Below, one piece after another: positions 6,139 through 21,534 of a DNA stretch of 64,000 nucleotides. Each line of letters starts with the position of its first letter. Positions within the stretch are counted from its first letter, which is position 1. The stretch is from Desulforhabdus amnigena (GTDB lineage Bacteria; Desulfobacterota; Syntrophobacteria; Syntrophobacterales; Syntrophobacteraceae). The notes under the pieces were generated by a model. That model made no database searches. It was not told where the DNA came from and worked only from the letters and a program-made list of their open reading frames with translations. The stretch covers positions 3,313,001 through 3,377,000 of the forward strand of contig NZ_BSDR01000001.1 of NCBI RefSeq assembly GCF_027925305.1, in the 5' to 3' direction. The translations under genes were made by a program, and so were the position numbers.

Positions 6139-6247
6139 ATTGAATCGTTCAATAAGATGAAAACTCTTTCCACTGAGCTTGCAGCTGGTTGCATATGGCG
6201 TCATCGCCGAAAATTGAATCGTTCAATAAGATGAAAACTCTTTCCAC
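6139..6247. CRISPR. Two-unit CRISPR-like direct repeat (35 bp repeat, 39 bp spacer)
   Basis: An identical 35-nt unit occurs at 6139-6173 and 6213-6247, separated by 39 nt of unrelated sequence. The unit begins ATTGAATCGTTCAAT, itself a perfect 6-bp inverted repeat with a 3-nt centre, and ends CTCTTTCCAC. Repeat length, spacer length and internal dyad are CRISPR-like, but the sequence differs from the main array's 36-bp repeat. With two copies and no dedicated cas genes, it may be a relic mini-array or a chance direct repeat. It sits just downstream of the DsrE gene. Confidence 0.45.
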
Positions 6248-6253
6248 CGTGCA

Positions 6254-6604: not shown

Positions 6605-6767
6605 GACCTGTCCTTTCCTTTTGCATTTTAAAGTAATGGATAGTGAGCATTTGAGATATCAATACTTCGCTTAAAATAAATGAGAACGCGGACGGGATTC
6701 AACCAATAAAATGCAAAATCGATTTGATATTCCCTGTGACACAGATCACTTCCCATACATTTCGCGC

Positions 6768-6803
6768 GTTTCAGTCCGTTGCAGGGAGTTCAGATTTGGC
6801 CAA
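6768..6803 (-). CRISPR. Strongly decayed CRISPR repeat at the leader-distal end
   Basis: This stretch aligns without gaps to the 36-bp repeat of the main array with about 6 mismatches, including the terminal base. It is the outermost recognisable copy, 2.8 kb from the start of the regular array. The 150 nt to the next copy is too long for one spacer, and no intermediate repeat was found in it. Confidence 0.65.
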
Positions 6804-6953
6804 TATCGCGGACTATAACAGGCGCGGGAGGACGCCCCTTCCCTCCATTGGCCCGCCCGTCCAGGTTTTTTGCCTGTGGGTGCGCCCGACTCGCCAGAGC
6901 GAATTTTCGAGTCCTCGCGCCTGAAAAAAATATAGCAATTTCATGGAGATTTC

Positions 6954-6989
6954 GTTTTAATCCCTTGCGGGGAATTCTGATGTGGCCAG
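6954..6989 (-). CRISPR. Slightly decayed solo CRISPR repeat
   Basis: It matches the main array's 36-bp repeat at 34 of 36 positions (C5T and A16G on the plus strand). The following 336 nt up to the next repeat contain a complete small gene rather than a normal spacer. Confidence 0.85.
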
Positions 6990-7027
6990 GCCCACAAAGG
7001 CCGCATTCAGATTGCAGGATAAAATAT

Positions 7028-7312
7028 TTACCGTTTTACAGAATGGCCGATAACATGCCCCAGCTTATCATAATAAACCGTCTTACCCTTATAAGCCTTA
7101 CCGGTGCTGATCACGCGACCTTGCTTGTTGTAATAGACCGTCTTACTCTTATAAGTCTTGTCCGTACCAATCACGCGACCCTGTTTGTCGTAATAAACCG
7201 TCTTCCGGTTCTCGCCGCACGTTTTCATTCCAACACAATTGCCGGACAGGGCAGGGCAAGTGAACAACGACACACATACGGAGGACAACACCACAACCTT
7301 CAACCAATTCAT
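7028..7312 (-). CDS. Small secreted protein with YYD-repeat motif (paralogue 1)
   Basis: A 94-residue protein with an N-terminal hydrophobic signal (MNWLKVVVLSSVCVSLFTC). Three degenerate repeats of about 20 residues follow, each reading K-T-V-Y-Y-(D/N)-K-x-G-(R/H)-V-I. The ribosome site AGGAGA overlaps the edge of the CRISPR repeat at 7326-7361, so the gene fills the interval between two repeats. Its frame is also open upstream through the repeat into the truncated gene. It is clearly paralogous to the gene at 8930-9211. The role is unknown; the repeats suggest a short beta-strand periplasmic or surface protein. Confidence 0.7.
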   Translation of the reverse strand: MNWLKVVVLSSVCVSLFTCPALSGNCVGMKTCGENRKTVYYDKQGRVIGTDKTYKSKTVYYNKQGRVISTGKAYKGKTVYYDKLGHVIGHSVKR

Positions 7313-7325
7313 AAAGTTATCTCCT

Positions 7326-7361
7326 GTTTCAATCCCTTGCAGGGAATTCTGATGTGGCCAG
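7326..7361 (-). CRISPR. Perfect solo CRISPR repeat inside the gene cassette
   Basis: It is identical over 36 nt to the repeats of the array at 9568-10793, yet lies 2.2 kb away with genes on both sides. On the minus strand it interrupts the gene starting at 7534 and in that frame encodes WPHQNSLQGIET without a stop. It abuts the ribosome site of the next gene. Confidence 0.95.
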
Positions 7362-7534
7362 ACGAGCTCCACGTTGTTTTCGTACCACCGCTCCTGCTTT
7401 GTCATGTGCTCACGGTACTGGATCAACATCTGGTCGAAGCGCCTGGAATCCAGCCACCACATGAACAGCACCAGGCCGGGAAGCCCAAAGCTCGAGAGGA
7501 TCGTAAGCACCTCCTTGATCGCTATGGATTCCAT
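7362..7534 (-). pseudogene. Truncated small membrane protein gene, cut by a CRISPR repeat
   Basis: The start ATG at 7534 lies 3 nt after the preceding gene. About 58 residues remain: one hydrophobic helix (LTILSSFGLPGLVLFMWWLD), then a charged amphipathic segment ending YENNVELV. The sequence resembles small one-helix phage or prophage proteins with a cytoplasmic coiled tail, and such a tail would normally continue. Here it stops exactly where the CRISPR repeat begins. The frame stays open through the repeat into the next gene, so a 168-residue fusion is theoretically possible. Loss of the 3' end by recombination at the repeat is the simplest reading. Confidence 0.6.
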
Positions 7535-7537
7535 GGC

Positions 7538-7813
7538 CTATGCTTCCTTGACGAGAGCCACGGCCATTTCTATCGCCAGATTGATGGCCGAAGCGCCGAG
7601 CTCCTTGCCTTCACGCACCGCGGCGGCCTCGATCCTTGAAAACGCGATCCTGCGCTTCTCTTCTCCGGTAAAATTCCCGGACGCCAGCTCCGAAACCACC
7701 GACACGGCGATGTCCTTGATGCTCTCCGCCGCCTTACCGGCCAGAGTCGCAGCCACCCTCTGAAAAAAACCACTTCTTTTGACCCACTGGTAAATCTTTG
7801 CAAAAAACTCCAT
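7538..7813 (-). CDS. Small phage-type protein, possible holin (LLH-like)
   Basis: A 91-residue protein with an aromatic N-terminus (MEFFAKIYQWVKRSGFFQRV). Alanine-rich amphipathic helices follow, ending GKELGASAINLAIEMAVALV. The pattern EEKRRIAFSRIEAAAVREGKE resembles the C-terminal part of Holin_LLH-type phage proteins. The start has a good GAGGGGAA ribosome site, and the upstream lipoprotein frame overlaps it by 80 nt. Assignment as a holin is tentative and rests on composition, size and neighbours (cell wall hydrolase, lipoprotein). Confidence 0.55.
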   Translation of the reverse strand: MEFFAKIYQWVKRSGFFQRVAATLAGKAAESIKDIAVSVVSELASGNFTGEEKRRIAFSRIEAAAVREGKELGASAINLAIEMAVALVKEA

Positions 7814-8027
7814 CGATTCCCCTCACTTCTTCCTGGAACGCCGATGCGTCCATTTTTTCACGACAGTTGACGCCTACAAAAAAAGTCCCGATCTTCGCCT
7901 CATTCCATCTGGCCCCTTCCTCCCATCTCGGAACCACCTTCATGCACGGCCTGCATTCCCAGTTGCGCAGGGTGCAGGAGCACAAAAGGGCCGGCAGGAG
8001 GACCGCGAGCATCGTATTGCGACACAT
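7734..8027 (-). CDS. Small cysteine-rich lipoprotein, possible outer spanin
   Basis: The 97-residue frame starts at an ATG that overlaps the previous gene's stop (TGATG) and begins MCRNTMLAVLLPALLCSCTL. That is a short signal with a lipobox-like LLCSC, followed by several further cysteines and charged residues. Size, lipobox and position downstream of a hydrolase and membrane gene fit an Rz1-like outer spanin. It lacks the usual proline-rich segment, so this is only a suggestion. Its 3' end overlaps the next gene by 80 nt in another frame, as in compact phage lysis modules. Confidence 0.45.
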   Translation of the reverse strand: MCRNTMLAVLLPALLCSCTLRNWECRPCMKVVPRWEEGARWNEAKIGTFFVGVNCREKMDASAFQEEVRGIDGVFCKDLPVGQKKWFFSEGGCDSGR

Positions 8028-8290
8028 CAGCTCCAGGGGTCCTTGAGATTGGGTTTTGCGATCACCGTGCTGGTGAAAAATCTCCTGGAAACCCAGATGA
8101 AAACCCCCAGCAGCGCCATGATCCGTGAGAACATCCCCTCCGGGACCGACACGTTGAAGTCCTTGAACAGCCCCAGCAAAATAGACTGGGTGAACGGGTC
8201 CTGGATTGCCGCCAGGAGCACAATGATCTTGGCACCCCATTCGATCTTGCTCTTTACGGGGGGCTTCGAAGGCAGCTCCGCCTGAGCCAT
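8027..8290 (-). CDS. Small membrane protein of the phage-like cassette
   Basis: An 87-residue protein starting MAQAELPSKPPVKSKIEW with a very strong AAAGGAGG ribosome site. It has two hydrophobic stretches, AKIIVLLAAIQDPFTQSILLG (about 20-40) and MALLGVFIWVSR (about 58-69), and a charged C-terminus. Two-helix topology and location between a cell wall hydrolase and a lipoprotein suggest a holin or anti-holin-type role, but no family was recognised. It is translationally coupled to the lipoprotein gene through a one-base stop/start overlap. Confidence 0.6.
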   Translation of the reverse strand: MAQAELPSKPPVKSKIEWGAKIIVLLAAIQDPFTQSILLGLFKDFNVSVPEGMFSRIMALLGVFIWVSRRFFTSTVIAKPNLKDPWS

Positions 8291-8304
8291 GCTCGTTCCT
8301 CCTT

Positions 8305-8742
8305 TTATCCCTCTTTCCAGAACAGATGGTTCCCGATTTTCACGCAAAACGTCATGTTGGACGAACCCGCCCAGTAGGGGCGGATAGACGCTGCGTGGTA
8401 ATGCGTGGCCCCGTGCGTCGGGTCTTCCTTCCTCCTCGCCCCGGGGGTCATCTCCAGAAGCAAGTCGGCCACACTCCTGCAAACGGAAATCAGATCGCCC
8501 ACCATCTCTCTTTGCGTAATTTGCTTGAAATTGGGATCGTCGGAGTTGAAACACGAAAACTGACGGGGCTTCAGAATGACACCCTTCAATCCCACCCCGT
8601 AACGCCCTCCGGCGTCGTAACGGTTCATCACGACATGGCCGACGGCGATCATGCCGTTGAGCCCTTCGCCCCTGGCCTCCCCGTAGATGCACCGGGCGAG
8701 CAGCTCCGCATCTCCCAGCTCCTGAAGTGAAAGCATCACCAT
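8305..8742 (-). CDS. Cell wall hydrolase, SleB-like (Hydrolase_2)
   Basis: A 145-residue catalytic domain of the SleB/CwlJ type, which cleaves peptidoglycan. Diagnostic features are ARCIYGEARGEGLNGMIAVG (about 16-35) with the family's conserved Glu in GEARGE, then GHVVMNRYD and PRQFSCFN. It ends GATHYHAASIRPYW...NHLFW. There is no signal peptide or peptidoglycan-binding domain, as in phage endolysins that rely on a holin. The ATG at 8742 has AGGAGG 8 nt upstream and is preferred over the TTG at 8748. It heads the run of small genes to its left and is separated from the gene to its right by a terminator. Confidence 0.85.
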   Translation of the reverse strand: MVMLSLQELGDAELLARCIYGEARGEGLNGMIAVGHVVMNRYDAGGRYGVGLKGVILKPRQFSCFNSDDPNFKQITQREMVGDLISVCRSVADLLLEMTPGARRKEDPTHGATHYHAASIRPYWAGSSNMTFCVKIGNHLFWKEG

Positions 8743-8855
8743 GGTCAAACCTCCTATCCGAACAACGATTTAAAAATACGGCTTCCACTTCCTTCTTACT
8801 GATCCAGTGCTCCGGATATCAACCGCGAGTCTTAAAGGATGGATAAAAACAAACA

Positions 8856-8888
8856 AAAAAGGGGCGATCCGTAATGGATCACCCCTTT
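8856..8888 (-). terminator. Rho-independent terminator after the right-hand YYD gene
   Basis: A stem of GGGGCGATCC pairing with GGATCACCCC (one mismatch) is followed on the minus strand by TTTTTTGTTTGTTTTT. It separates the HTH/YYD unit from the hydrolase unit. Confidence 0.8.
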
Positions 8889-8929
8889 TCGATGGTCAAA
8901 ATAGTGGGACGCAGGTATGCCCGCAGGAT

Positions 8930-9211
8930 TTACCGCGCCAGGGCGCGCCCGATGATGCGCCCCCGCCTGTCATAATAAACCGTCTCGCCCTTGCGGGTCA
9001 CACTCTTGCCGCTGATGCGCCCCCGGCTGTCATAATAAACCGTTTTATCGCCATGCGTGACGCTGCGCCCATCGATACGCCCCTTGCCGTCATAATAGTA
9101 CACCGTCGCACGGCTGCCGTCACGGCAGCCCCCCGCATGCACGAACCCCACCGGACCGGCCAGCACCAGCGCCATGGACGTCGCGGCAAACAAACCGGAT
9201 ATCCAACGCAT
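8930..9211 (-). CDS. Small secreted protein with YYD-repeat motif (paralogue 2)
   Basis: A 93-residue protein with a clear signal peptide (MRWISGLFAATSMALVLAG...VHAGG). Three near-perfect repeats of 20-22 residues follow, reading TVYY(D/Y)x(R/K)GRI(D/S/I)G(R/K). The ATG at 9211 is preceded by AAGGAGGG at ideal spacing; the ATG at 9229 has only a weak site. It is paralogous to the gene at 7028-7312, with more regular repeats and higher GC. YYD/GR repeats occur in small exported proteins of proteobacteria and prophages. No function is known to me. Confidence 0.75.
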   Translation of the reverse strand: MRWISGLFAATSMALVLAGPVGFVHAGGCRDGSRATVYYYDGKGRIDGRSVTHGDKTVYYDSRGRISGKSVTRKGETVYYDRRGRIIGRALAR

Positions 9212-9244
9212 ACACAACCCTCCTTTCATTATCCTTTCATTATC

Positions 9245-9496
9245 CTATTGAATCCCCATCAATTTTCTTACGGATTCGGACTTGATCCGCACACTCTTCT
9301 TCAGCTTCACGCTTTCAATGACGCCTTCAGCACAGAGCTCATACACCTTCGACTGGCATATGCGCAGGATGTTCGCCACTTCGTCCGGCCTCAGCAGGTA
9401 CTTGAACTGTAAGATGCGCAAATCTGGAATCACATGATCAAAATCCCCTATGAACATCGGAACCATGGTTTTTTTGAAATCTATTATATCGGACAT
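9245..9496 (-). CDS. Small helix-turn-helix protein (excisionase/MerR-like HTH_17)
   Basis: The ATG at 9496 with AGGAAGGTGG upstream gives 83 residues. The core LLRPDEVANILRICQSKVYELCAEGVIESVKLKKSVRIKSESVRKLM has the helix-turn-helix-wing pattern of HTH_17/excisionase proteins. There, the LLRPDEVANIL helix and SKVYEL recognition helix precede a wing ending in a conserved Arg-Ile strand. Such proteins regulate excision or transcription in mobile elements. It is the first gene of the cassette, 71 nt from the first regular CRISPR repeat. No integrase is visible nearby. Confidence 0.7.
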   Translation of the reverse strand: MSDIIDFKKTMVPMFIGDFDHVIPDLRILQFKYLLRPDEVANILRICQSKVYELCAEGVIESVKLKKSVRIKSESVRKLMGIQ

Positions 9497-9567
9497 ATCA
9501 TCCACCACCTTCCTGCTAAGCCTCACGAACGGTTTTCCGCTTTCCTTCGAACTTTTCCACTTTTACC

Positions 9568-10793
9568 GTTTCAATCCCTTGCAGGGAATTCTGATGTGGC
9601 CAGATATTCCGAGTCAAGGCCTTCGTGGACCTCGACGAGATCGTTTCAATCCCTTGCAGGGAATTCTGATGTGGCCAGGAGCGATCTATCCAGGGGAGAG
9701 ATCGTGGACCGGATGGTTTCAATCCCTTGCAGGGAATTCTGATGTGGCCAGATGCTGAGTCATTTCAACCCTCAACTTTGCCGTACTGTTTCAATCCCTT
9801 GCAGGGAATTCTGATGTGGCCAGTAAATCCTACACGTTGAATCCGTCCATAGGCATCTCTTATGTTTCAATCCCTTGCAGGGAATTCTGATGTGGCCAGC
9901 TGCCAATCCCACAGATCCGCCCATTACCCAAAGAATTTGTTTCAATCCCTTGCAGGGAATTCTGATGTGGCCAGTCCATGTCGACAACCCCTGCGCCTGT
10001 CCGCCTTCCATGTTTCAATCCCTTGCAGGGAATTCTGATGTGGCCAGAGACGGGGCCGAATCTCTACAACTCGCACTCAGGAAAGTTTCAATCCCTTGCA
10101 GGGAATTCTGATGTGGCCAGCTGGCTACCAGGGAATGGTGATGGAGGGCGAGGAGACCGTTTCAATCCCTTGCAGGGAATTCTGATGTGGCCAGCAGTCG
10201 TTATTTGGTCCGGATACAGCCTGGATCTGGCCAGGTTTCAATCCCTTGCAGGGAATTCTGATGTGGCCAGCAGTCGTTATTTGGTCCGGATACAGCCTGG
10301 ATCTGGCCAGGTTTCAATCCCTTGCAGGGAATTCTGATGTGGCCAGGGGGATAACGTCGAGCTGCTTTATGCCTATCGTGACGGTTTCAATCCCTTGCAG
10401 GGAATTCTGATGTGGCCAGTCCACGACGATGGCGTATTCCTGCCCGGCCCCCAACATGTTTCAATCCCTTGCAGGGAATTCTGATGTGGCCAGCGAATCA
10501 AGGAAAAATCGCTTACATGCGGTGTGCCGCAGTTTCAATCCCTTGCAGGGAATTCTGATGTGGCCAGGGGACGGCTCCCATCGGAATCGGGGAGGACATT
10601 ATTCTTGTTTCAATCCCTTGCAGGGAATTCTGATGTGGCCAGCTGCAGCAGCACTCCGACATCGTAGGCCTGCTTCGTAAGCGTTTCAATCCCTTGCAGG
10701 GAATTCTGATGTGGCCAGCCGGCACGGGCGTTCTTGTATCCAGTGGATCTCAGCTCAGTTTCAATCCCTTGCAGGGAATTCTGATGTGGCCAG
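9568..10793 (-). CRISPR. CRISPR array, 17 repeats of 36 bp, 16 spacers of 36-40 bp
   Basis: The 36-nt unit begins GTTTCAATCC and ends GATGTGGCCAG on the plus strand. It is repeated without visible change at 9568, 9643, 9716, 9788, 9864, 9939, 10012, 10085, 10159, 10235, 10311, 10384, 10458, 10532, 10607, 10683 and 10758. Read on the minus strand the repeat ends ATTGAAAC, the usual 3' tag of type I/III repeats, so transcription should run leftwards from a leader near cas2. Spacers at 10195-10234 and 10271-10310 are identical. Decayed and solo repeats further left mark the older end. Confidence 0.98.
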
Positions 10794-10992
10794 CTCATTT
10801 CGAATTTTAGGATATACTTTGAGCGCTTGCAATACCGAATGCGAGATGTTCTTATTTTGAGAGTATTTCATCTTACCTTTCCAAGATTCATTCGGCTTAT
10901 TCATAACCCAATACCCTGATGTCAAAAGAAAAACAGGAATTGCGAGCGCTCCCCGCATTTTTTCTTCTCCGTCACCTCTCGCAGAAGAAGAT
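10794..10992 (-). promoter_or_regulatory. Probable CRISPR leader
   Basis: An AT-rich gap of about 200 nt between the last regular repeat and the end of cas2, on the side where repeats are perfect. Its position next to the integrase genes and the repeat polarity make it the likely leader with the array promoter and integration-anchoring site. No promoter boxes were assigned. Confidence 0.65.
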
Positions 10993-11274
10993 CTAAAAAA
11001 TGATCACCCCTTCAATCTCTATCTGCGTTTTCACGCCGATGAACTCCAGGTTTTTGAGCTGACTCTCCTGGACGGGAAGAATGATGACCTGATCTTCGTT
11101 TTCATGAATCACTTTCCGTACGCGATCCATGAGCCTCTTCTTTTGGATTTCGGAGATACAGCAATGGAAAAAGCTGTATTGCAGGCGGTAGCCATATTCC
11201 TTCATGATCCTGGCTACTCGTCCCAACCTTTTACCGTCCGAAATGTCGTAGCCGATGAGGTAATTCTTTTTCAT
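10993..11274 (-). CDS. cas2: CRISPR-associated endonuclease Cas2
   Basis: A 93-residue ferredoxin-fold protein, the structural partner of Cas1 in spacer integration. It starts MKKNYLIGYDISDGKRLGRVA, where Asp10 in the YDI(S) strand is the conserved acidic residue. RLQYSFFHCCIS and a C-terminal strand ending EGVIIF follow. The start overlaps the Cas4-Cas1 stop by ATGA, showing translational coupling. It is the last gene of the cas operon before the leader and array. Confidence 0.93.
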   Translation of the reverse strand: MKKNYLIGYDISDGKRLGRVARIMKEYGYRLQYSFFHCCISEIQKKRLMDRVRKVIHENEDQVIILPVQESQLKNLEFIGVKTQIEIEGVIIF

Positions 11275-12929
11275 CGAATTCGAAACCCTGTGTATTCTTC
11301 GATATCGCCCAAAAGATATTTTCCAAGAATTCGGTACTGGAGCTCAATGGTCCTTTCATAGCTCATGCGATACTGGAAGAGAGGATGTGTCACATGGTCC
11401 TTCTTTCGCATTTCATATTGACCTATAAACTTTTTTCTACCCCGTTCATTGAGATAACAGGTTCCCTGGTATATTAAAAAATCCTTTGCCGAAAAGACCC
11501 CGTTATTGATGGCGGTTATCACCATGGAATCTACAATGGGCTGCCGAAAATATTCCATGATGTCCAACGCCAGCGACGGCCTCCCATACTTCATGATGTG
11601 ATAGTAACCACAGTATGGATCAAGACCGACTCGAAGGGCGGCTCCCACACAATCCTTGGCAAGGAGAGAATAGCCAAAGCTGAGCAGTGCGTTGACAGGA
11701 TTATTGGGAGGCCTTTTCACCCGGCCGTCAAAAGCAAAAAGCTCCTGCTGCACCGGTTTGATGAACCTTTGAAACTGCTGGAAATAAAGCTTTCCGCCCA
11801 TCCCCTCGAATCCCCGTAAGGAATCCAGATCCAGGGCTGTTTCTGTCTGCCTGATCAGTCGTTTGAGCTGGTCAATAAGTTGGCTGTCTTCCGGTTCCTT
11901 CTTTTGATCGCGAAGATAACGCATGAGAAGCGTTCGGCTGCTGGCGAGCTTGGCCTGAACGATATTCTGAGCAATCTTGAGAGAAAAAGCGGGATTGAAA
12001 TGAGCTCGCCACTGAGATTCCCTCAACAAACCATGGCGATGCAGAGACGGGCTGGCCACTCCGATGTAACGTCCCCGAAGGCTCATGTAATGGACAGGGA
12101 TTTGATTATACAGGCAACTGTGGAGCAACTGAGTCGACATCTGGACAGGACCGCAGAGTACAACTTCCTGAAGGTGTTCGAGGGAAACCTCCCCCAGTAC
12201 CTCACCACCGGGGGCTTTCACCACAATCTGCCGGTCCGACAGACTGAGATAAGCACCCAGTTTATCCACGTACAGGACCTGGTCTTCAAGCCGCCTGGGC
12301 AATATGCATTTTGCATTTACCTTTCTGCCACGGATGACTTCTTCCTCTTCGGGCAGGCAAATGGGATAGAGCGAGCAGGCAAAACACTGGTTCCGGTTGG
12401 AGACCGGGGGAGGCAGTTCTTCCTTGCGGGCTACGGCCAGGCCGGCCTCTATGGTCTTCAGTGTCTCGTTCCTCAAAGAGGCGTCGAAGGGAACCTCAAC
12501 ACGAGCTTTGGAAGCAATGTAATAAAGGTAGCCCTTTCCGGGATAGGGCAGTCCGTTTTCTTCCATCAGTAATCCCTGAGCACATAGCTGAACGCGATCG
12601 TTCAACCAGGGTTCCCTCCCCCGTGGTTTGTAGCCTTTCTTGTACTCGACGGGATAGACTTCCCCGCTGCCGTCCTCTTCCAGCAGGTCGAGCCGCCCGG
12701 TAATGCCCAGCCGATCCGATTTCCACATGACGGAACGACGGTGAATGTATTCTTCCTTCTTGACTGCCCGCCCCTCTTTGCCCCTGGCATCTACAACCTC
12801 ATGCCGAGATCGCCCTTCCTCCGTATGAAGATTGTCTTCAAACATGCCGCGTACAAATTCCAGGTAAAAGCGTCTGGGGCAGTAAACATAGGCATTGAGA
12901 CAGGATATGGGAATCAGACGTTCTTCCAT
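11271..12929 (-). CDS. Cas4-Cas1 fusion protein (adaptation nuclease-integrase)
   Basis: A 552-residue fusion. Residues 1-200 are a Cas4 RecB-like nuclease: Cys17 in YCPRRFYLEF, Asp81 in GRLDLL, Glu95 and Lys97 in VEYKKG, and a C-terminal cysteine set at 182, 185 and 191 (CFACSLYPIC) for a 4Fe-4S cluster. Residues from about 210 are Cas1, with GGKLYFQQF, NPVNALLSFGYSLL and the metal-site region GYYHIMKYGRPSLALDIMEYFR. Cas4 selects and trims PAM-containing prespacers and Cas1 integrates them. The ATG at 12929 has GAGG 7 nt upstream and is preferred over the TTG at 12941. The fusion is best known from I-G systems but also occurs elsewhere. Confidence 0.93.
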   Translation of the reverse strand: MEERLIPISCLNAYVYCPRRFYLEFVRGMFEDNLHTEEGRSRHEVVDARGKEGRAVKKEEYIHRRSVMWKSDRLGITGRLDLLEEDGSGEVYPVEYKKGYKPRGREPWLNDRVQLCAQGLLMEENGLPYPGKGYLYYIASKARVEVPFDASLRNETLKTIEAGLAVARKEELPPPVSNRNQCFACSLYPICLPEEEEVIRGRKVNAKCILPRRLEDQVLYVDKLGAYLSLSDRQIVVKAPGGEVLGEVSLEHLQEVVLCGPVQMSTQLLHSCLYNQIPVHYMSLRGRYIGVASPSLHRHGLLRESQWRAHFNPAFSLKIAQNIVQAKLASSRTLLMRYLRDQKKEPEDSQLIDQLKRLIRQTETALDLDSLRGFEGMGGKLYFQQFQRFIKPVQQELFAFDGRVKRPPNNPVNALLSFGYSLLAKDCVGAALRVGLDPYCGYYHIMKYGRPSLALDIMEYFRQPIVDSMVITAINNGVFSAKDFLIYQGTCYLNERGRKKFIGQYEMRKKDHVTHPLFQYRMSYERTIELQYRILGKYLLGDIEEYTGFRIR

Positions 12930-13046
12930 TTGACGCCTCAAACTTCAAATGAAGGATGAAAATCTTTCAACCTTAGAACTTATCCGTCTCCAAAACTTCA
13001 CCCCTGCCCTCTCCTTAAAAGGTGCAAAAAACCCTGCGGATAGGCT

Positions 13047-13838
13047 CTAAGCCAGCTTCTCGATCACCCGGCACATCCCCATGCCCTGTGTCGTTTTGAC
13101 TCCGATTCCGGAATAGAAGGCAAAACGGAGCAAAGTATGGTAATAACACCGGTCGGCCTCGCTCCCCTTCATGATGAAAGTCAATTTTCCAACGGCTCCA
13201 ATCACTGTGCCGCTTTTTCGAAGGGCGTACGGTTCGGTGTGGATATCGAGATTTGCGTAGCTCACATCACTATAATCCTGCTTTTCCTGGAATTTGACGG
13301 GGGAAAAAAGATTCCACCTCCGCGCCAGGTTGGCGAAAACCAGTGCGGGTTCAGGCAAAGGATAATGCAGATCTCCTCTTTTGAAGGCAGTGGGGCTCAA
13401 CAGATGCAAAGTCGTTTTACCCGAGCTGCAGGCTTCGGAAAGCAGCTCTTCATAGTCCAACCTTCCGCTCCATATATCGTTCTCCTCTTCTCCCAGAACG
13501 ATATCCTCCACCTGAAAGAACAATCCGGAAAGATCAAACGGAGCGTCCCAGAATCCCCTGGCTATGGTTTCCAGAAAGACCTCTTCCAGTTCATTGTTGA
13601 GTATGGCGACTCGAATGCGGTAGGTTTCGTTTTCAACGATTTTCTCTCTTATCTTTTTGCCCATGACCGGTGAAATGGAAAACGGCGCCATCCCACCGGA
13701 ATCATGCAGGCCATGCCCGACGGTGGCGTTGCCGGCAGTCATCCGATTCAGAAACACGGGATGAAAGAGGGCGTGAAAAGAACGGGGCACAAGTCCCCCC
13801 GTGAGAGAGCGAAGGTTGATGATGGCGGTGACGGGCAT
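13047..13838 (-). CDS. cas6: CRISPR RNA endonuclease Cas6
   Basis: A 263-residue RAMP protein that processes pre-crRNA at the repeats. It starts MPVTAIINLRSLTGGLVP one base from the helicase stop. FRIRV-like strands follow, and near the end is the glycine-rich loop FYSGIGVKTTQGMGMCRVIE typical of Cas6. The frame is open further upstream inside the helicase gene, but the ATG at 13838 matches normal Cas6 length. About 120 nt separate it from the Cas4-Cas1 start. No catalytic His was assigned with certainty. Confidence 0.85.
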   Translation of the reverse strand: MPVTAIINLRSLTGGLVPRSFHALFHPVFLNRMTAGNATVGHGLHDSGGMAPFSISPVMGKKIREKIVENETYRIRVAILNNELEEVFLETIARGFWDAPFDLSGLFFQVEDIVLGEEENDIWSGRLDYEELLSEACSSGKTTLHLLSPTAFKRGDLHYPLPEPALVFANLARRWNLFSPVKFQEKQDYSDVSYANLDIHTEPYALRKSGTVIGAVGKLTFIMKGSEADRCYYHTLLRFAFYSGIGVKTTQGMGMCRVIEKLA

Positions 13839-13839
13839 G

Positions 13840-15687
13840 TCAAGACTCCATTTCCAATACCCAAAGGCTTCCCTCGTATTTGACGGAGTTGTTTTCCACA
13901 GCGAACCTGCCATCGCTTTTCAGGAACGGTCTGTACTGTAAAATGCGCTCAAATCCTTTCCTGTAGCCTTTCACCAACACGGTAGGAATATCCACGTATC
14001 CCAAATCGGCATCGAAATACTTCGATTCAAATTTTTCCCCGATCACACAGAATAAACTGGTTTCATAGGGACTGACCCGCTGCCCCAGAGGATACATGTC
14101 CCACGAGCTTCCTTCGCCGGCGTTCAGGTTGTAGTAACCTTTCAGAAGCTCTGCGTGCCATTGCCCGTTCTCTTCAATGGACAAATGATCGCTTACCTTC
14201 TCCTTTTTCAATTCTTCCGGCGTCTTACCGATATTGCGAGCCAGGCGGCTGATGCCGATCTGCACAGGGTTGATGGGAGTGTTCGTCTTTTCATGCAAGC
14301 CGGTGCATAAAGTGACGGAGGGTTCCCAACACCGCGTGACCAGGATGCCCCGGTCCCAGAGGGGCTTGCTCGTCAGCTCTCCTTCGTAAACATATTCCCA
14401 CAGCATATCGAAGAGGACCTCCCCCATCCAGTCCCCCTGGACCATGCGGAAATAATTGAAGAGAACGGTCGGATCGAAGCGGTTCCCCATGTTCTTCAGG
14501 TCCTCGAGATAACGGTCTGAAAGATTTCCGGGAAGAGAGCAAAGAAAAGGCTTGATCCCATCGCCCACAATCACCAGCTCCGCATCTTCCATTTTTCCCC
14601 TGCGATTGAGCCGCCCGGCCAACTGAACCAGGCTGTCTGGGTTGCAGAGTTCCGTGACAATGACATGCGCATCCAGGTCACAACCGGCTTCAATGGCCGA
14701 GGTCGCGAGGATCAGAAACCCTTCGCCCTCTCGCTGCCGGGCAATCAGTTTTTGAATGACCGAACTGCGCTGAACGGCGGTGAGCCTTCCATGATAGACG
14801 AGAGGGCGGAGATCTTTGAGCTTTCCATAGAGCTGCACAAGGTCCTTCACGAGTTCAGTCCGGACGATGATCCTCTTGGCCGGATCAAAGCGTTTCCTTG
14901 TTTCGCGTTCCATGATATTCAGAAACTCTTCGGGATCGCGCGATGTATTGGGGGCCTCTACCAGTTGAAGTCCTTTACGGGCATGAACCATTTTCCGCGT
15001 CTCTTTTTGAAAGAGGGCCATTTCTTCTGCAAGGTCCCCCTGAGTTGCATCCACTGTATTCAAGAAATCACCGAATTCCGCCGGCAGGGTGGCGCTCATG
15101 ACACACAGGTCTTTACCCTTGAGAAACAACGTTTCCAGGAGCTTGCGAAAATTGGAAAAGGCGAGTCCATCGTAATCGTGAGCCTCATCAAAAATGAGAA
15201 AGGGGCGTTTACCCAGTGCGGAACCGAAAATGCGGTGGGGAAAAATATAGGATTTGATTTTTTCCCCATATCCGAAAAGCCTGAAAAGGAACTTGTCGAG
15301 AGTGGTGACGATGATATCGTCGGCAAAGAGGTGGCGCTGATAATTCTGGTGAAAAGACTCTCCCGACCGGCAAACCGAGCGCCTGCAGCTTCCGCCCATA
15401 TCCACGGTAATGGTCACTTCACGGGCATTGCCGCGTGAGAGGTTTTCTCCGATTTTTACAACCCGCTGCCCCATGTCTTCAATGAGAGCCTTGGTGGGAA
15501 GGACTATGACGACCCTCCTTCCATCCGCCAGCGCGGGAAGCAGAGAGGCTTCCGTTTTGCCCGTACCGGTGCCCGCCCGAATGAGCAGAGCGGGATGCGC
15601 ATCCTGTTCATAGGCGTTCCACACCGCCTTCTGTAGGGGATTGGGCAGGAAACCAACGGCCTGCCGATAGTATGTTTCAATTTCCAT
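13840..15687 (-). CDS. CRISPR-associated helicase Cas3'
   Basis: A 615-residue superfamily 2 helicase without an HD domain. Motif I RAGTGTGKTE lies at about 37-46, motif II FDEAHDYD at 166-173, motif III SATLP near 198 and motif VI QLAGRLNRRGK near 350. A C-terminal region of about 200 residues probably contacts Cascade. It unwinds target DNA during interference while the separate HD nuclease cuts. The start lies inside the end of the cas3'' gene (11-nt overlap), so the two halves of Cas3 are tightly coupled. Separate helicase and HD genes are normal for I-A but not for most other subtypes. Confidence 0.9.
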   Translation of the reverse strand: MEIETYYRQAVGFLPNPLQKAVWNAYEQDAHPALLIRAGTGTGKTEASLLPALADGRRVVIVLPTKALIEDMGQRVVKIGENLSRGNAREVTITVDMGGSCRRSVCRSGESFHQNYQRHLFADDIIVTTLDKFLFRLFGYGEKIKSYIFPHRIFGSALGKRPFLIFDEAHDYDGLAFSNFRKLLETLFLKGKDLCVMSATLPAEFGDFLNTVDATQGDLAEEMALFQKETRKMVHARKGLQLVEAPNTSRDPEEFLNIMERETRKRFDPAKRIIVRTELVKDLVQLYGKLKDLRPLVYHGRLTAVQRSSVIQKLIARQREGEGFLILATSAIEAGCDLDAHVIVTELCNPDSLVQLAGRLNRRGKMEDAELVIVGDGIKPFLCSLPGNLSDRYLEDLKNMGNRFDPTVLFNYFRMVQGDWMGEVLFDMLWEYVYEGELTSKPLWDRGILVTRCWEPSVTLCTGLHEKTNTPINPVQIGISRLARNIGKTPEELKKEKVSDHLSIEENGQWHAELLKGYYNLNAGEGSSWDMYPLGQRVSPYETSLFCVIGEKFESKYFDADLGYVDIPTVLVKGYRKGFERILQYRPFLKSDGRFAVENNSVKYEGSLWVLEMES

Positions 15688-16381
15688 GACGGCGTTCCCT
15701 CACAAGCGTGATGGTGATTGCGCTTTCCTCATCGAGAGGAAGATTCTTCAATGCCCGTTCTATCTCTTTGGGTTCTTTCCCTCGAAATTCCTTTTCCGGT
15801 AGTTTTTTCAGTCGGACACTCAAAGTGAAACCCTCTTCCCTGAAGGGCCATGGAACGACTCCAAATGTCCTGAAGGCATCGTCCAGCCGTTCCGTGCTGA
15901 ATTCCATAAACGTGCGGGGAACCGAGTCTTTCTTCTCAACGGATTTTACCGCAAGTTCCGCTTCGAGCTGGTCTGCCATGCACAGGAGATAAAGATCGTC
16001 GGGAAACCATGACTTCTCGCTCTCCGAGCCCTGACGCGCTCTTTCGTGATTGACCTGTTCCACGGAGAATTCATGATGAGCCCTTATGAGGCTTGCAATA
16101 TAGGGATCTTCGTGAGGCACACGGAAACGGTGCCCCGCAAAGCTGTAAAGGAGCCGATGCGTTTTATCGTCCCTGCGAATCCGGAAAGTGTCCCGCTTGC
16201 CCAAATCATGGAGTTCCACCGCACGAAAGAGCCGTTCCCTGGTTGCTTCATGAAAATAGTGGGTATCAAATTTCTCCAAAATGCTTCTGCAGTTGCCCAC
16301 ATGGTTTTGGAGCGGCTGTCCGTAAACGGATGAAAGCTCTTCGGCTTCATAGATAAAAAAGATGCGCCCCCAATGATTCAT
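15677..16381 (-). CDS. CRISPR-associated HD nuclease Cas3''
   Basis: A 234-residue stand-alone HD-domain nuclease. The metal-binding set is complete: His27 (QNHVGN), His58-Asp59 (ELHDLGKRD), His84 (AGHRF), His102-His103 (RAHHEFS) and Asp137 (MADQLE). It should nick and degrade target single strands opened by the Cas3' helicase. The C-terminal 70 residues are a charged alpha-beta tail of unknown function. The start overlaps the preceding cas5 stop by ATGA. Canonical I-D systems carry this HD domain inside Cas10d, so its separate state is notable here. Confidence 0.87.
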   Translation of the reverse strand: MNHWGRIFFIYEAEELSSVYGQPLQNHVGNCRSILEKFDTHYFHEATRERLFRAVELHDLGKRDTFRIRRDDKTHRLLYSFAGHRFRVPHEDPYIASLIRAHHEFSVEQVNHERARQGSESEKSWFPDDLYLLCMADQLEAELAVKSVEKKDSVPRTFMEFSTERLDDAFRTFGVVPWPFREEGFTLSVRLKKLPEKEFRGKEPKEIERALKNLPLDEESAITITLVRERRHGN

Positions 16382-17238
16382 GACTGTCCCTCATGATAGA
16401 AAAGTTCGACATCTCCCCTTAAAAAAAGGTCGGGAACGACCGCAGGAAATCCGAACCCGGGTTCCAGCGCCCAGTAAGCCCCCCCGAGGTGATTCACATT
16501 CCACCATGCTCCCACTTGAAAAAATCCATCCACTCCGCCTTTTTGCCCGTTCTTCCAAAGGTATTCGTCACTCCAGTGATGGCCGTAAAGTGAATAATAG
16601 GTCCCGGAGGAAGGACTGAAAAAAGCGGGCGCCAGACCGGCAGGCCGAAAATCCCCGTCTTGTAAAAACAGTTCACGAGGAGGCTCGATTGCAGCCACAT
16701 ACAGATAGCCTTCCTTTCCCGCCTTGCCGCCGAAGTTTTTCAAGCATCGAAGCCTGTCGAGGTCCCTGCTCTCACGGGCGGCCACCCAACCCTTGAGGTT
16801 ATCACAAAAAAGATAATCCCAATGGTGCAGCTGGTAATTTTCTTTATGGTCCTCACGAAGGATTTGAGAGAACTGTGCATGTTGAAAATTCTTGGGGCCG
16901 TGCCGCCTCGTTTTGTGGATCTTCCATTGGTTGGGTTGGGGGTAGGCCCCAAGAGTCCGGAATTCCTTTCCCAGGGTCAGGGTAAATTCTTTTCCCGGGG
17001 GCTTTTCCTTTCCCTTGGCACCGGTTCCAAACCAATCTTCGCCGTATCCGGGCCACTCTCCCCCGTCCTCCCCTTGAGCTCCTTCCGCAATGATCAAAAG
17101 CCTCTGAAGAAAGCCGCTCATGGTCGTCGGCGGCATGAAGGGATAGCTCATGATGGGCAGGCTTCCCGAGGGCATTCTTCTGAAGGTCAGCGGACCCGTG
17201 GGCTTGAAGGTCATTTCTGTGATCCAGATGGATTCCAT
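16378..17238 (-). CDS. Cas5-family Cascade subunit (Csc1-like)
   Basis: A 286-residue RAMP-type protein. The N-terminus, ITEMTFKPTGPLTFRRMPSG then SYPFMPPTTMSGFLQRLLII, has the strand, proline loop and GFL helix typical of Cas5 proteins, which cap the crRNA 5' handle. The middle is long and rich in Trp, Tyr and His. Position between the Cas7-like and HD genes agrees with Cas5/Csc1. There is no clear Csc1 diagnostic motif, so the subtype label rests on the neighbours. It starts 17 nt after the cas7 stop. Confidence 0.75.
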   Translation of the reverse strand: MESIWITEMTFKPTGPLTFRRMPSGSLPIMSYPFMPPTTMSGFLQRLLIIAEGAQGEDGGEWPGYGEDWFGTGAKGKEKPPGKEFTLTLGKEFRTLGAYPQPNQWKIHKTRRHGPKNFQHAQFSQILREDHKENYQLHHWDYLFCDNLKGWVAARESRDLDRLRCLKNFGGKAGKEGYLYVAAIEPPRELFLQDGDFRPAGLAPAFFSPSSGTYYSLYGHHWSDEYLWKNGQKGGVDGFFQVGAWWNVNHLGGAYWALEPGFGFPAVVPDLFLRGDVELFYHEGQS

Positions 17239-17254
17239 GACGGAAAATTCCTCT

Positions 17255-18148
17255 CTAAGCTTTCAGAAATTTTTCTTCAAACAGAACGGCCGCATCCTGA
17301 AGGACTTTGAGGGCGGAAGCCCCGGTACTTCTCCTGAACTTTTCAGGCTGTTCCGAGCGGAAATCTTCGGCCAGCTGCACAAAAGTTTTGACCGCTTCGT
17401 CGTTGTCGGTAAGGGACGGGCTCAGGATGGGCCTTTCTCCGAGAGGGACCCGGTATTCATCCACCACCAGCAGAGGCTCCACACCGCCCTCCCATCCACC
17501 CCGCGCCAGGGCCACCCCTTTGGGGTTTCCAGCCCCAAGGCGGTTGAGGCTCATGAGAAAGGCATAGGCCACGGTCGTGAATTCCTCCCGGCTTATGGAA
17601 AGGCAGTGGTTGCTCACGGGATAAAGAATCCCGGGCTGAGCGTATTCCTTGCGGTAAGGCATGGGGGTGCTGTCCTTTTCCTTGTAAATGAGGGCCGGAT
17701 GCATGGCACGCTGCTTTTCCAATGCAATCTGTCCGGAAACGGCCACACCCCCCGAATGGGTCAGGCGGCCGATGAAGGTCTTTTCACCTGCTATCAGCCC
17801 GCCAAAAACGGCGCAGACCGGGCAGGAATCCTTGCAGCACGTCCCGGGAATACCGCAGGACAACTTGTCCATGAGGAGCTGCCCCCCGGCATCGCTCCAA
17901 AGCAGGCACCGTCTTTCCACTCCGCGCCGTTTGGTGGGACTGATGTAACATTTTTCCATCACTCCTTCGGAGGTCTGGACCCGCACTTTTTCGACCATAT
18001 TGACGTTGACCTCTTTTTCATCCCCGAAATAGAGTTCCTGCGGCGCTTCGAGAATGGCATAAATGTCGTAGTGTTTTCGCGGGCCATCGGTTTTCGGCAA
18101 TCCGCTCGAAATTTTCTCGGCCTGTTTTTCCGAATTCTTCCCTGCCAT
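17255..18148 (-). CDS. Cas7-family backbone subunit (Csc2-like)
   Basis: A 297-residue RAMP protein that would form the crRNA-binding filament. It has a cysteine-rich loop SCGIPGTCCKDSCPVCAVFGG (Cys98, 104, 105, 109, 112). The loop follows the C-x(n)-C-K-x-x-C-P-x-C-x-x-(Y/F)-G pattern remembered from type I-D Csc2. Near the C-terminus, SLNRLGAGNPKGVALARG corresponds to the glycine-rich segment of the family. The ATG at 18148 has AAGGAGG upstream, and a longer open frame to 18301 lies inside the preceding gene. The assignment is by motif and order only. Confidence 0.75.
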   Translation of the reverse strand: MAGKNSEKQAEKISSGLPKTDGPRKHYDIYAILEAPQELYFGDEKEVNVNMVEKVRVQTSEGVMEKCYISPTKRRGVERRCLLWSDAGGQLLMDKLSCGIPGTCCKDSCPVCAVFGGLIAGEKTFIGRLTHSGGVAVSGQIALEKQRAMHPALIYKEKDSTPMPYRKEYAQPGILYPVSNHCLSISREEFTTVAYAFLMSLNRLGAGNPKGVALARGGWEGGVEPLLVVDEYRVPLGERPILSPSLTDNDEAVKTFVQLAEDFRSEQPEKFRRSTGASALKVLQDAAVLFEEKFLKA

Positions 18149-18188
18149 GAGTGCCTCCTTGTTTTGCTGCAAATCGAGAATGAGCCGC

Positions 18189-20207
18189 CTATTGATTGTC
18201 CGAACCGAGATGCTGCGGAAACATGCTCCACAATGCCAGCTTCGCCTGGTAGGCAAATGCCCGCCAGTCGGCTTCGTTCTGGTAGGGCTTCTCGCCTTCA
18301 TTCACCAGAGCGCCGGTCACGCGGGCGATCTGGTCGGGACCGATGAAGATCTTTTCCCCGGCATCCCTGGCCCATGACAACCCATCATTTTCATTGACAA
18401 TCCTTGCCCCTTCCCTTTTGAGTTCCTCGACGTCCTCGCCGGCCCATCCGAGCAGTTCCAGGGCCTTTTCAAAGAAATACCTGTTGCGTGGCTGACGGCA
18501 GAAAATGAAGTCTCGTGCCCCACTCTCCCGGGATGCCGTGTAGGCGTACTGAATGGGACGATCCACTTCCTCCAGAAGTTTACTCACAGCGCGCTTCTTT
18601 TCATTGCCCGCTGTTTTGCTGTTTTCCACCCGCTCGGCCAAAGGCAAAAGCAGACCGGCAAAGCCCACTATTTTCGGGTAGTCCGGAATAGGCATGGGTT
18701 CCTCCTTCGATAGAATTCTCTCAAATTGTTCCCAAATGTCCTGGATTTGAAACCGCCTCCATGATCTGGAATAGTCTTCGATCACCCCGCCCTTCAGCAG
18801 GGTATAAAAGCTCTCAAAGACCTTACCGCGAGAAATGAGGCGCAGGAATCGGCCGAAATGAGGCCTCAGCTTTTTGTCGCTGTAACACCGGTACTCGAAC
18901 ACCTTGTCCCAGTGCACCAGCGCCGAAGTCAGCCACAGTTGCCAGCGGGGCAAGGTGAAAATTTCTTCTCCCGGATAGACTTCCACACTGAACCCCTGGG
19001 CGAACAGTTCGGGAGAAAAAGTCAAAGCCATTTTCCACAGCGCATAAGAATAGGCCCCAAAAGTTTGAACCAGCGGCTTCCGGTCCACAGATTCATTGAC
19101 GTGCAAACTGACGAAACTCCCGGCCGCCACATGCAGCGTTTGAGCGACGTATTTCCTCAATTCCATTTGGACCGCCGGCAGGTCTTTGCTGTCTGGGAGT
19201 TCTTTCCGGGCAGGATCGAGAAAGCGGACGGTGAGTGTTTCAGGAGTCAACTTCACGGGGCATAGGAAAACCGTGGCAACGCAACGGGGGCAGAAGCAGG
19301 GCTTGTCGTCCTTCAATTTTCCCGACTGCGGCCTTTCGTCCGCATCTTTGACGAAAACCGCCAGGCGTTTATAGCTGTCGTTTTTGGGGAGAATCTCTCC
19401 ACAGGCAAGGCAGGCAACCTCTTTCGCATCCCTACCTGAAAAAAAGTCCCCTCCTTTTACAAACTTGTCTGATTTCGGCTCAGGAAAAACAACCTGCGCA
19501 TAACTCCCTTTTTCTAAAACTCCCTTTAAGGAGTCTATAGCCGATGGAATGCTTTTTTCCTTGAAAAGTTTTTTTCGGTTGCTGCCGGTTTGGTAATAGT
19601 GGATGAGAAATTTGGCCATATCTGCCGAAAGAATGGGGACTTCCTCTCTTCCCCACGCCTTAGCCTGGTTCTTGAACAGGGTTTTATGGTTCAAATAGAT
19701 TTCCACCGATTTTTTCAAATGTTCCCGCGAAGCGAGTTTCTCCCAGAATGCGGCCCACAACTCTTTGATTGTCGCTTTCAGTTCACCGCAACTGTCGGCC
19801 TTGCCCCCTTCATCCGATTTCGCAATTACCTTGAACTGATTTCCTGAAAGGATCGCCCAGAAGGACCTCTCACACAGGAATGCGCTGAACTCTTCCCAGA
19901 ACCAGTCGTAACCGAGGGCCATCTGAGGTTCTCCCGGACGCGCCGGCAGGGGAAAGATGGCATATTTTCCGCGTATTTTTCCCGTATCGTCTTTGACAGT
20001 GCCGTCGCCCTCTTCTGAAAAAACAGGCGGCTTCCATTCCACGAGTTCCGGAGCAAAAGAGAGTCGTCTCAGTTCTTTCAGTTTCCGTGAGGCATTAAGG
20101 TATGTTTTGAGTTCGGGCTGAAATGCATCTCTATTCTTGGCAGAAACCAGTGCGCTCAGTTCGAAATCGCTCAGCAGAACGAAGTATTCCGACAAAAACT
20201 CATTCAT
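18189..20207 (-). CDS. Large Cascade subunit, Cas10d/Cas8-like, without HD domain
   Basis: A 672-residue protein at the large-subunit position of a type I operon. It has a zinc-finger-like cysteine cluster, C-x2-C at 266-269 (CLACG) and C-x-C-x2-C at 304-309 (CFCPRC). The middle segment TFGAYSYALWKMALTFSPEL followed by GFSVEVYPGEEIF recalls Csc3/Cas10d palm-like regions. No N-terminal HD motif and no GGDD motif are present, which separates it from canonical Cas10d. It would recognise the PAM and recruit the nuclease-helicase. The alternative is a divergent Cas8 of I-A or I-B type. Confidence 0.65.
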   Translation of the reverse strand: MNEFLSEYFVLLSDFELSALVSAKNRDAFQPELKTYLNASRKLKELRRLSFAPELVEWKPPVFSEEGDGTVKDDTGKIRGKYAIFPLPARPGEPQMALGYDWFWEEFSAFLCERSFWAILSGNQFKVIAKSDEGGKADSCGELKATIKELWAAFWEKLASREHLKKSVEIYLNHKTLFKNQAKAWGREEVPILSADMAKFLIHYYQTGSNRKKLFKEKSIPSAIDSLKGVLEKGSYAQVVFPEPKSDKFVKGGDFFSGRDAKEVACLACGEILPKNDSYKRLAVFVKDADERPQSGKLKDDKPCFCPRCVATVFLCPVKLTPETLTVRFLDPARKELPDSKDLPAVQMELRKYVAQTLHVAAGSFVSLHVNESVDRKPLVQTFGAYSYALWKMALTFSPELFAQGFSVEVYPGEEIFTLPRWQLWLTSALVHWDKVFEYRCYSDKKLRPHFGRFLRLISRGKVFESFYTLLKGGVIEDYSRSWRRFQIQDIWEQFERILSKEEPMPIPDYPKIVGFAGLLLPLAERVENSKTAGNEKKRAVSKLLEEVDRPIQYAYTASRESGARDFIFCRQPRNRYFFEKALELLGWAGEDVEELKREGARIVNENDGLSWARDAGEKIFIGPDQIARVTGALVNEGEKPYQNEADWRAFAYQAKLALWSMFPQHLGSDNQ

Positions 20208-20331
20208 GTCGCCGACTCCTCAAAAATTTCAGAAGGAATTTTAAGACAGCCTCTCAGAGAAAAGGAATGTGATAACCGGTTTTGATCCTCGTTCCGTCCG
20301 TATGACGTGCTTCAATCCCGCGAATGCAAAC

Positions 20332-21303
20332 TCACCCATACAACTCGGACATTTTCTTCACCGATTCCCTCGCCTCTTCTCGCAGCCAGGCCGGTTCTAC
20401 AATCTCCGCATCGGCGCCCCATCCCATCGCCCACCAGAGGACTTCCCGGGGTTCAGCCACTTCCACGGTGAGAAGGATGCCTCCATCCCCGGAAGGAACA
20501 ATTTTTTGGGAATGGTGCCAGAGAGATTCTTCGATATAAGGCCTGGCATGAGCATTGAAACGCACCGCTACTCTTTGAGGCTCTTCCCCTCCGAAGACCG
20601 AAAAGACGGACCGGTTGCGTTTTGCGAAGTCATAGCCCTCCAGCCTTTGAAAATGCATCGCCGTAAATTCCACTTTTCGCATACGGCTGACCCGGTAAGT
20701 TCTTATTTCCTTTGACTTCACAGAGAATGCTTCCAGGTAAAGAGATCTTTTTCTGAAGAAAATGGAATAGGGATCTATTTCATATTCGCTGGTCTCGGAC
20801 TCGGAAGGTTTCTGATATCGGATACGGACACGGCGGCTCTCGGAAATCGCCAGTTGAAGTTTTTCAAGAACAGCGGCGTCACAACCAAAACCTTCTCGAA
20901 ACACCAGGTCGTCAAAAAGATTGGAGACTGATTCGCGCAGAGGGCCCTGGAGGCCGCTGATGAGTTTTCGGGCCGCGAGGAATCCGTGGTAGCTGAGAAA
21001 ATAATCTCCTGTTGTGGAGAGCTGGCGGACCGCCATGATCAGGGCAAACCTCTCGCTCAAACTGAGGTCTTCGGCTGGAAGGTAACAGTCCTGATCGATA
21101 ACGAAACAGTCATTTTTTCGGTCATGATGAAATTGGAATCCAAGCCCTTTCAGGAACTCCCGGTCCTTGTAAAACTGAGCCCTGCTGACACCCACCCTGG
21201 CAATGAGATCTTGAAGAGACTGCCGGGGCTGGCATTTGATCTCTATAGCCAGTTTTAATATGCGCTGTAATCTAGATGTATACTTTCTCATGATATTCGA
21301 CAT
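20332..21303 (-). CDS. WYL-domain transcriptional regulator of the cas operon
   Basis: A 323-residue protein with an N-terminal winged helix-turn-helix (SLQDLIARVGVSRAQFYKDREFL, about 29-51). A WYL domain follows (RVRIRYQKPSE...EIDPYSIFFRKRSLYLEAFSV, about 158-200), then a WCX-like C-terminal region. WYL regulators bind nucleic-acid ligands and often control CRISPR and other defence loci. It is the first gene of the cas block, on the same strand, 124 nt before the large-subunit gene. A role in repressing or activating this operon is inferred from position. Confidence 0.85.
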   Translation of the reverse strand: MSNIMRKYTSRLQRILKLAIEIKCQPRQSLQDLIARVGVSRAQFYKDREFLKGLGFQFHHDRKNDCFVIDQDCYLPAEDLSLSERFALIMAVRQLSTTGDYFLSYHGFLAARKLISGLQGPLRESVSNLFDDLVFREGFGCDAAVLEKLQLAISESRRVRIRYQKPSESETSEYEIDPYSIFFRKRSLYLEAFSVKSKEIRTYRVSRMRKVEFTAMHFQRLEGYDFAKRNRSVFSVFGGEEPQRVAVRFNAHARPYIEESLWHHSQKIVPSGDGGILLTVEVAEPREVLWWAMGWGADAEIVEPAWLREEARESVKKMSELYG

Positions 21304-21534
21304 CCTTCGAGCGCATTTGTAATACTCCCACCGCGAAAACTCAAATCCTTTATGGGCTTACGTCTACAAGTGGATAGACACACGTAAAGATATATTGAAA
21401 CGCTTATATACGGATTATATACGGACTACGAAGGCAGGAACGCAGCTTCTCGCTACAGTCGTTTCAGAAGTGCGGATAGTCGTCGGCTGGAAATTTCAGG
21501 CACAATGGAGGTTTTGGTTTAATGTTCGAAAGCT

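Follow-up and report, generated by a model that had tools for sequence, protein, structure and literature searches.

In staphylococci, the spacers of a CRISPR array (clustered regularly interspaced short palindromic repeats) are reported to recombine with their phage targets (Varble 2019, doi 10.1038/s41564-019-0400-2, as cited in PMC8616872 and PMC10434264), and the integration of phages through CRISPR repeats has been proposed (PMC8616872, PMC10651486). In this work, we analyzed a stretch of 64,000 nucleotides (nt) from Desulforhabdus amnigena (assembly GCF_027925305.1, contig NZ_BSDR01000001.1, positions 3,313,001 to 3,377,000; hereafter, the window), which contains a natural type I-B array where two captured pieces of DNA, of 336 and 2206 base pairs (bp), stand between repeats; the larger is an internal fragment from the lysis region of a Mu-like phage. 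The staphylococcal case, as presented in the papers citing it, is similar in that homology between spacer and target joins array and phage DNA; however, there the CRISPR locus moves into phage particles, whereas here phage DNA stays in the array, with repeats at both ends. Phage DNA also lies between CRISPR repeats in Streptococcus pyogenes (Varble 2021, doi 10.1038/s41564-021-00996-8, cited in PMC10651486) where, according to the title and the citing text, temperate prophages integrate via repeat-like sequences; the D. amnigena piece is instead an internal fragment lacking an integrase, and no repeat exists in the relative phage. Similarly, the solitary repeat units and RNA anti-CRISPRs (PMC10651486) have CRISPR repeats beside phage genes, but the repeats described here belong to the host array and no phage carrying them was found. 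In the literature searched, which mostly left out subscription papers, we found no description of natural arrays in which repeats enclose kilobase-scale fragments of mobile elements. Casposons and Cas1-family integrases also integrate kilobase-scale DNA with duplication of a repeat-like target; in contrast, the D. amnigena piece contains no terminal inverted repeats, DNA polymerase, or solo Cas1.

The array repeat (GTTTCAATCCCTTGCAGGGAATTCTGATGTGGCCAG) is found with 0/36 mismatches at 7326-7361 and 9568-9603, with 2/36 at 6954-6989, and with 6/36 at 6768-6803. The best chance match in 200 shuffles of 3.8 kb has 14 mismatches, and thus the decayed copy at 6768-6803 can be regarded as a real repeat. 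The places of spacers are taken by three intervals of 150, 336, and 2206 bp (6804-6953, 6990-7325, and 7362-9567), and the remaining array is regular (Table 1). Since cas2 and cas4-cas1 and a leader with a promoter-like motif lie at the right and the repeats decay at the left, the odd intervals occupy the trailer (that is, the old) end. An earlier note on this DNA had located the three outlying repeat copies exactly where we find them, had given 336 nt and 2.2 kb for the DNA standing in place of spacers, and had likened the phage-like genes in the old end of the array to a lysis module; our measurements bear this out, and the module is indeed a phage-derived one inside a genuine array.

The same lysis module is found in a prophage of the Syntrophobacteraceae metagenome-assembled genome Ch74 (JABUEY010000012.1) and, in part, on the IMG/VR contig 3300038674_000720, with a nucleotide identity between the cassette and these phage relatives of 73-77%. 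The Ch74 prophage carries Mu Gam, GemA, Gp27, terminase, and Portal_Mu genes, which identifies the source as Mu-like. On the minus strand, and in phage order, the fragment contains a frame ending in VKVEKFEGKRKTVREA and a stop codon, followed by the genes for an HTH_17 protein, a YYD-repeat protein, a SleB-type endolysin, a probable holin, a lipoprotein, a Holin_LLH protein, and a truncated protein of 57 residues. The main difference from Ch74 concerns the position of the YYD gene; apart from that, fragment and phage interior are collinear, and no deletion joint is present. A search for cassette DNA in phage records gave no match, and no relatives of the HTH and of the second YYD protein were found in IMG/VR. 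Within its own genome, the cassette has no second copy, and no Mu-like terminase was found elsewhere, an empty search result that is weak evidence alone. Lastly, an Rfam scan of the region 5.8-11 kb gave no match.

The left edge of the fragment is exact. The phage alignment stops at base 7362, beside the repeat, and both relatives run on past this point (GAGCTGGT, then AAAG), so that the edge cuts a protein that is 107 amino acids (aa) long in both phages, between YENNVELV and KACNRICENQQ. At the right edge (9567), no homologue covers the site and the frame is open to the repeat; the frame at 9516-9567 is probably the C-terminus of a second cut gene. The genes, which the earlier note had considered intact, are therefore not all so: the one at 7362-7534 retains 57 of about 107 residues, and that at 9516-9567 is probably cut as well. 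The sequences at the two ends of each captured fragment differ from each other. The neighboring 336-bp piece carries a second YYD gene, and a single open frame at 7028-7534 crosses the intervening repeat and fuses the truncated phage protein with the YYD protein encoded in this piece. A third YYD-like exported repeat protein is encoded at positions 9562-9855 of another locus (L084; G000:C1 ~2828061-2828354), near WYL-type regulator genes and not phage genes. As to the expression of the lysis genes, the terminator-like hairpin at 8856-8890 could, judging from its sequence, shield them from array transcription.

The array also holds an ordinary spacer, at 9752-9787, directed against the same phage family. 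By ungapped comparison, it shares 26/36 identities with the Ch74 prophage, the best value reached by shuffles being 22/36; once translated (STAKLRVEMTQH vs TTAKLRVEMTQH), it has a BLOSUM score of 56 (shuffle maximum for that spacer, 38), the top score among the 1897 spacers from all the arrays examined, with a runner-up at 48. In the phage, its target and the captured genes are on the same strand. A plain BLAST of the spacers against phage sequences gave no match. In a different array, from the genome of the same genus (L137, G001:C15), a spacer at 4025 encodes PKTGNESAML vs PKTGNESGML of the Mu-like prophage, with a score (47) that is near the upper end of chance.

These features are not confined to the window. 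We surveyed 51 arrays (that of the window plus those lying beside Cas1 relatives in the same phylum) for a total of 1903 intervals. Almost all of these (1897/1903) are 29-49 nt long, none falls at 50-149 nt, and the remaining six measure 150, 336, 844, 1816, 2206, and 5989 nt; the 336 and 2206 bp pieces are thus outside the length range of ordinary spacers. Two further cases of kilobase-scale mobile-element fragments with genes cut at repeats were found in the 50 other arrays. The first (L125, G413:C133:9000-23182, positions 10488-12304), which comes from a short draft contig, is a 1.8-kb stretch of phage structural genes that two repeats enclose in the middle of an array of 42 repeats; it includes only the C-terminus of a portal protein at the repeat (phrog_12 positions 372-421 of 646), plus a tail-completion protein. 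The second (L122, G171:C12:93000-112000, positions 3374-9434) is a 6.0-kb fragment of a conjugative element with an orphan repeat (1 mismatch) on one side and the array on the other; it encodes the C-terminus only of TraF (PF13728 positions 192-224 of 224), TraH, and TraG, and its last frame runs into the repeat. The tra relatives of this fragment are only 25-28% alike, too distant for a comparison with the spacers of its array. The same array adjoins a large gene (1536 aa) for a probable Cas12-like effector and a Cas4-Cas1 fusion. The 844-bp interval (L156, G010:C83:31000-44495, positions 7245-8162) is flanked by a decayed repeat and a short array and contains a MazEF-like toxin-antitoxin pair that seems intact; it is not clearly a case of the same kind. 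An interval of 254 nt in G025 was rejected, being a run of N. Because the arrays were picked by similarity to the Cas1 of the window, these counts do not represent a rate for CRISPR in general.

How might phage genes have come to lie between the repeats of an array? On balance, we lean towards the idea that the 2206-bp piece is a scar left by recombination of the array with a phage already recorded in its spacers. The ancestral array, which was not seen in any genome, would have contained two or more ordinary spacers (among them S1 and S2) acquired from a single Mu-like phage, all on one strand and arranged as in the phage. Recombination through S1 might have brought phage DNA into the array; S2 would then have targeted the integrated phage, whose protospacer might have recombined with S2 in the array, removing the rest. 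Alternatively to this stepwise route, a single double exchange with a linear phage fragment might have occurred. In either case, two repeats would enclose the phage DNA from protospacer 1 to protospacer 2, the edges falling exactly at the repeats and genes being interrupted wherever a protospacer lay. The remaining targeting spacer might have supplied both the break and the selection for shortening the integrated phage, and the 336-bp piece would be a second, smaller scar of the same kind. Recombination through two spacers accounts for the exact edges, the cut genes, the unlike ends, the length gap, and the spacer from the same phage. The absence of intervals of 50-149 nt, in particular, is expected if length reflects the distance between two protospacers, and is not expected from a relaxed ruler. 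We also considered integration through a single spacer, which was rejected because the ends of the fragment differ.

Several points weigh against this reconstruction. It calls for two spacers from the same phage that have the correct order and strand, as well as two exchanges on about 37 bp of homology, and the 336-bp piece, whose source was not identified in our searches, requires one more such event. The exact edge could be demonstrated at 1/4 edges (7362, versus two phages), the other three having no homologues to compare. Neither S1 nor S2 was seen as a free spacer anywhere we searched. Moreover, no familiar protospacer-adjacent motif (TTN, TTC) lies 36-40 nt inside the 7362 end, where the triplets corresponding to spacer lengths of 36-40 are AAA, CAA, ACA, GAC, and TGA, although the motif of this system may differ from the familiar ones.

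The alternative that survives best is that Cas4-Cas1/Cas2 integrated pieces of phage DNA 0.3-2.2 kb long, without trimming them, at the leader repeat, which was duplicated in the process, and that 16 normal spacers were added later. Exact edges at repeats and arbitrary cuts in genes match spacer integration, and the phage triplet outside the 7362 edge is TTT on the plus strand, a TTN-type motif; this motif, however, stands on the leader-distal side, the reverse of the normal type I orientation. A Cas4-Cas1 fusion is present in all three kilobase-scale cases, but this link is an effect of the choice of arrays: such intervals occur in 2/~25 arrays with a fusion (window excluded) and in 0-1/23 without it, a difference that is not significant. 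Furthermore, Cas1-Cas2 measures the length of the prespacer, no kilobase precedent was found in the literature searched, and 0/1903 intervals fall at 50-149 nt. Casposases do integrate kilobase-sized elements with duplication of the target repeat. The acquisition of kilobase spacers, which the earlier note had envisaged, is thus possible in principle, the gap in interval lengths arguing for products of recombination, and we regard untrimmed insertion as unlikely in this case. With similar reserve we look at the more general idea that CRISPR adaptation complexes, perhaps those with a fused Cas4-Cas1, occasionally integrate kilobase DNA between repeats, so that arrays can store whole invader genes.

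Two other hypotheses, which we consider very unlikely and to the same degree, let the phage itself bring about the insertion. According to one of them, a Mu-like phage carried solitary repeats or a mini-array, and these served for its recombination with the host array; phages with such repeats are known, and it has been proposed that they integrate in this way (PMC8616872, PMC10651486). This scenario, raised in the earlier note as a prophage with its own repeats, would need a repeat inside the phage gene at 7362 and three repeats in 2.6 kb, and it found no support in our data: the repeat is absent (at up to 3 mismatches) from the Ch74 genome carrying the relative prophage, its 27-nt core is absent from IMG/VR, and the phage relatives carry the genes without flanking repeats. 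According to the other, either a complete Mu-like prophage entered the array by transposition, or a phage with an integrase took the repeat for its attachment site, as in Streptococcus pyogenes, and 2.2 kb is what subsequent deletions spared. The relative belongs to the Mu-like phages, and prophages are known to integrate into CRISPR loci (Varble 2021, as cited in PMC10651486). Nevertheless, random transposition followed by deletion should leave remnants of spacers at the edges, whereas at 7362 the phage homology reaches right up to the repeat (a chance of about 1 in 75), and a fragment collinear with the phage interior except for the YYD gene shows no deletion joint. Nor does the composition of the fragment speak for a mobile element having landed in the array, as had been suggested: it contains internal lysis genes only, with no integrase, transposase, or recombinase and no phage or element ends, it is cut within a gene, and its edges lie at repeats and not at an inverted-repeat pair, as those of an insertion sequence or transposon would. 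Finally, an assembly artefact is extremely unlikely: even though the window was judged from its assembled sequence alone and the other two examples come from draft genomes, this genome is one contig of 4.54 Mb with 99.4% completeness, a mis-join at the 36-bp repeat may reorder inter-repeat segments but cannot make repeats flush with phage DNA, and the pattern recurs in three unrelated genomes.

As for the locus as a whole (Table 1), the presence of Cas5b, Cas7b, and Cas8b (PADLOC), together with cas6 and cas3, assigns the system to type I-B, with Cas4 and Cas1 fused. In G001, the sole genome of the same genus compared, the region corresponding to about 6711-21532 (14.8 kb) is missing as a block, with flanks that are 46 bp apart and contiguous (mutY, ChaN-like, and DsrE-like genes at the left, archease-like and RtcB-like genes at the right, named by sequence reading). 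A relative having the array without the cassette, the comparison proposed in the earlier note, was therefore not found there, the array and the cas island being missing entirely; no such allele occurs among 60 relatives, where the array repeat was found only in the D. amnigena genome itself. The joint absence of array, cas genes, and cassette implies that the cassette is part of the island carrying the whole CRISPR-cas locus. The 150-bp interval at 6804-6953 had no match in 30 other genomes. Within the regular array, the identical adjacent spacers at 10195-10234 and 10271-10310 point to a unit duplicated within the array, a sign of internal recombination. To the left of the island, a 40-nt direct repeat (6139-6178 and 6213-6252, 95% identical, 74-nt spacing) resembles a one-spacer CRISPR of another type; this pair falls inside about 400 bp that are absent from G001.

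Table 1. Features of the CRISPR-cas island of D. amnigena and of the DNA captured in its array (positions refer to the window).
Feature	Positions	Strand	Basis
Whole CRISPR-cas island: array, captured pieces, cas operon, WYL regulator	6711..21532	.	Block missing in G001
Decayed terminal repeat, 6/36 mismatches	6768..6803	-	Repeat comparison, shuffles
150-bp interval after the decayed repeat	6804..6953	-	No match in 30 other genomes
Repeat, 2 mismatches	6954..6989	-	Repeat comparison
336-bp captured piece, starting with ribosome-binding-site-like AGGAG; gene for a YYD-repeat exported protein at 7028-7312	6990..7325	-	
Perfect repeat separating both captured pieces	7326..7361	-	
2206-bp captured internal fragment of a Mu-like phage	7362..9567	-	Alignment to phage relatives
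N-terminal 57 residues of a small membrane phage protein that has 107 aa in relatives; truncated at the repeat	7362..7534	-	phrog_25899, relatives
Holin (Holin_LLH, PF09682)	7538..7813	-	Profile match
Small lipoprotein, putatively Rz1-like by position and signal	7734..8027	-	
Small membrane protein, probable holin, 86% identical to a Ch74 prophage protein	8027..8293	-	
SleB-type cell-wall hydrolase (endolysin, PF07486)	8305..8748	-	Profile match
Terminator-like hairpin, matched in the relative phage too	8856..8890	-	
YYD-repeat exported protein 1	8930..9229	-	
HTH_17 DNA-binding protein, 62% identical to a Ch74 prophage protein	9245..9526	-	
Open frame ending in VKVEKFEGKRKTVREA and a stop, abutting the repeat; probable C-terminus (last 16 codons) of a second cut gene	9516..9567	-	
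Regular array, 17 perfect repeats and 16 spacers of 36-40 nt, minus-strand reading from the leader at right	9568..10793	-	
Ordinary spacer vs same phage family, encoding STAKLRVEMTQH vs TTAKLRVEMTQH in a head-region protein	9752..9787	-	Ungapped and protein-level comparison
Leader with promoter-like TTGCAA-17-TAAAAT at 10832-10804 (match to consensus only)	10794..10992	-	
Type I-B cas operon: cas2, cas4-cas1 fusion, cas6, cas3', HD cas3'', cas5b, cas7b, cas8b	10993..20207	-	

On the whole, these data suggest that recombination occasionally takes place between the immune memories of bacteria and the invaders recorded in them. If this idea is correct, CRISPR arrays would keep physical scars of the recombination between an immune memory and the invader it remembers, and these scars would be countable from existing genomes, the sharp gap in interval lengths providing a simple test of spacer-mediated recombination versus relaxed acquisition. 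Such events would also represent a route by which mobile-element genes, including those for lysis, structural proteins, and conjugation, might enter host chromosomes and, two spacers being consumed, a route to the loss of immunity.

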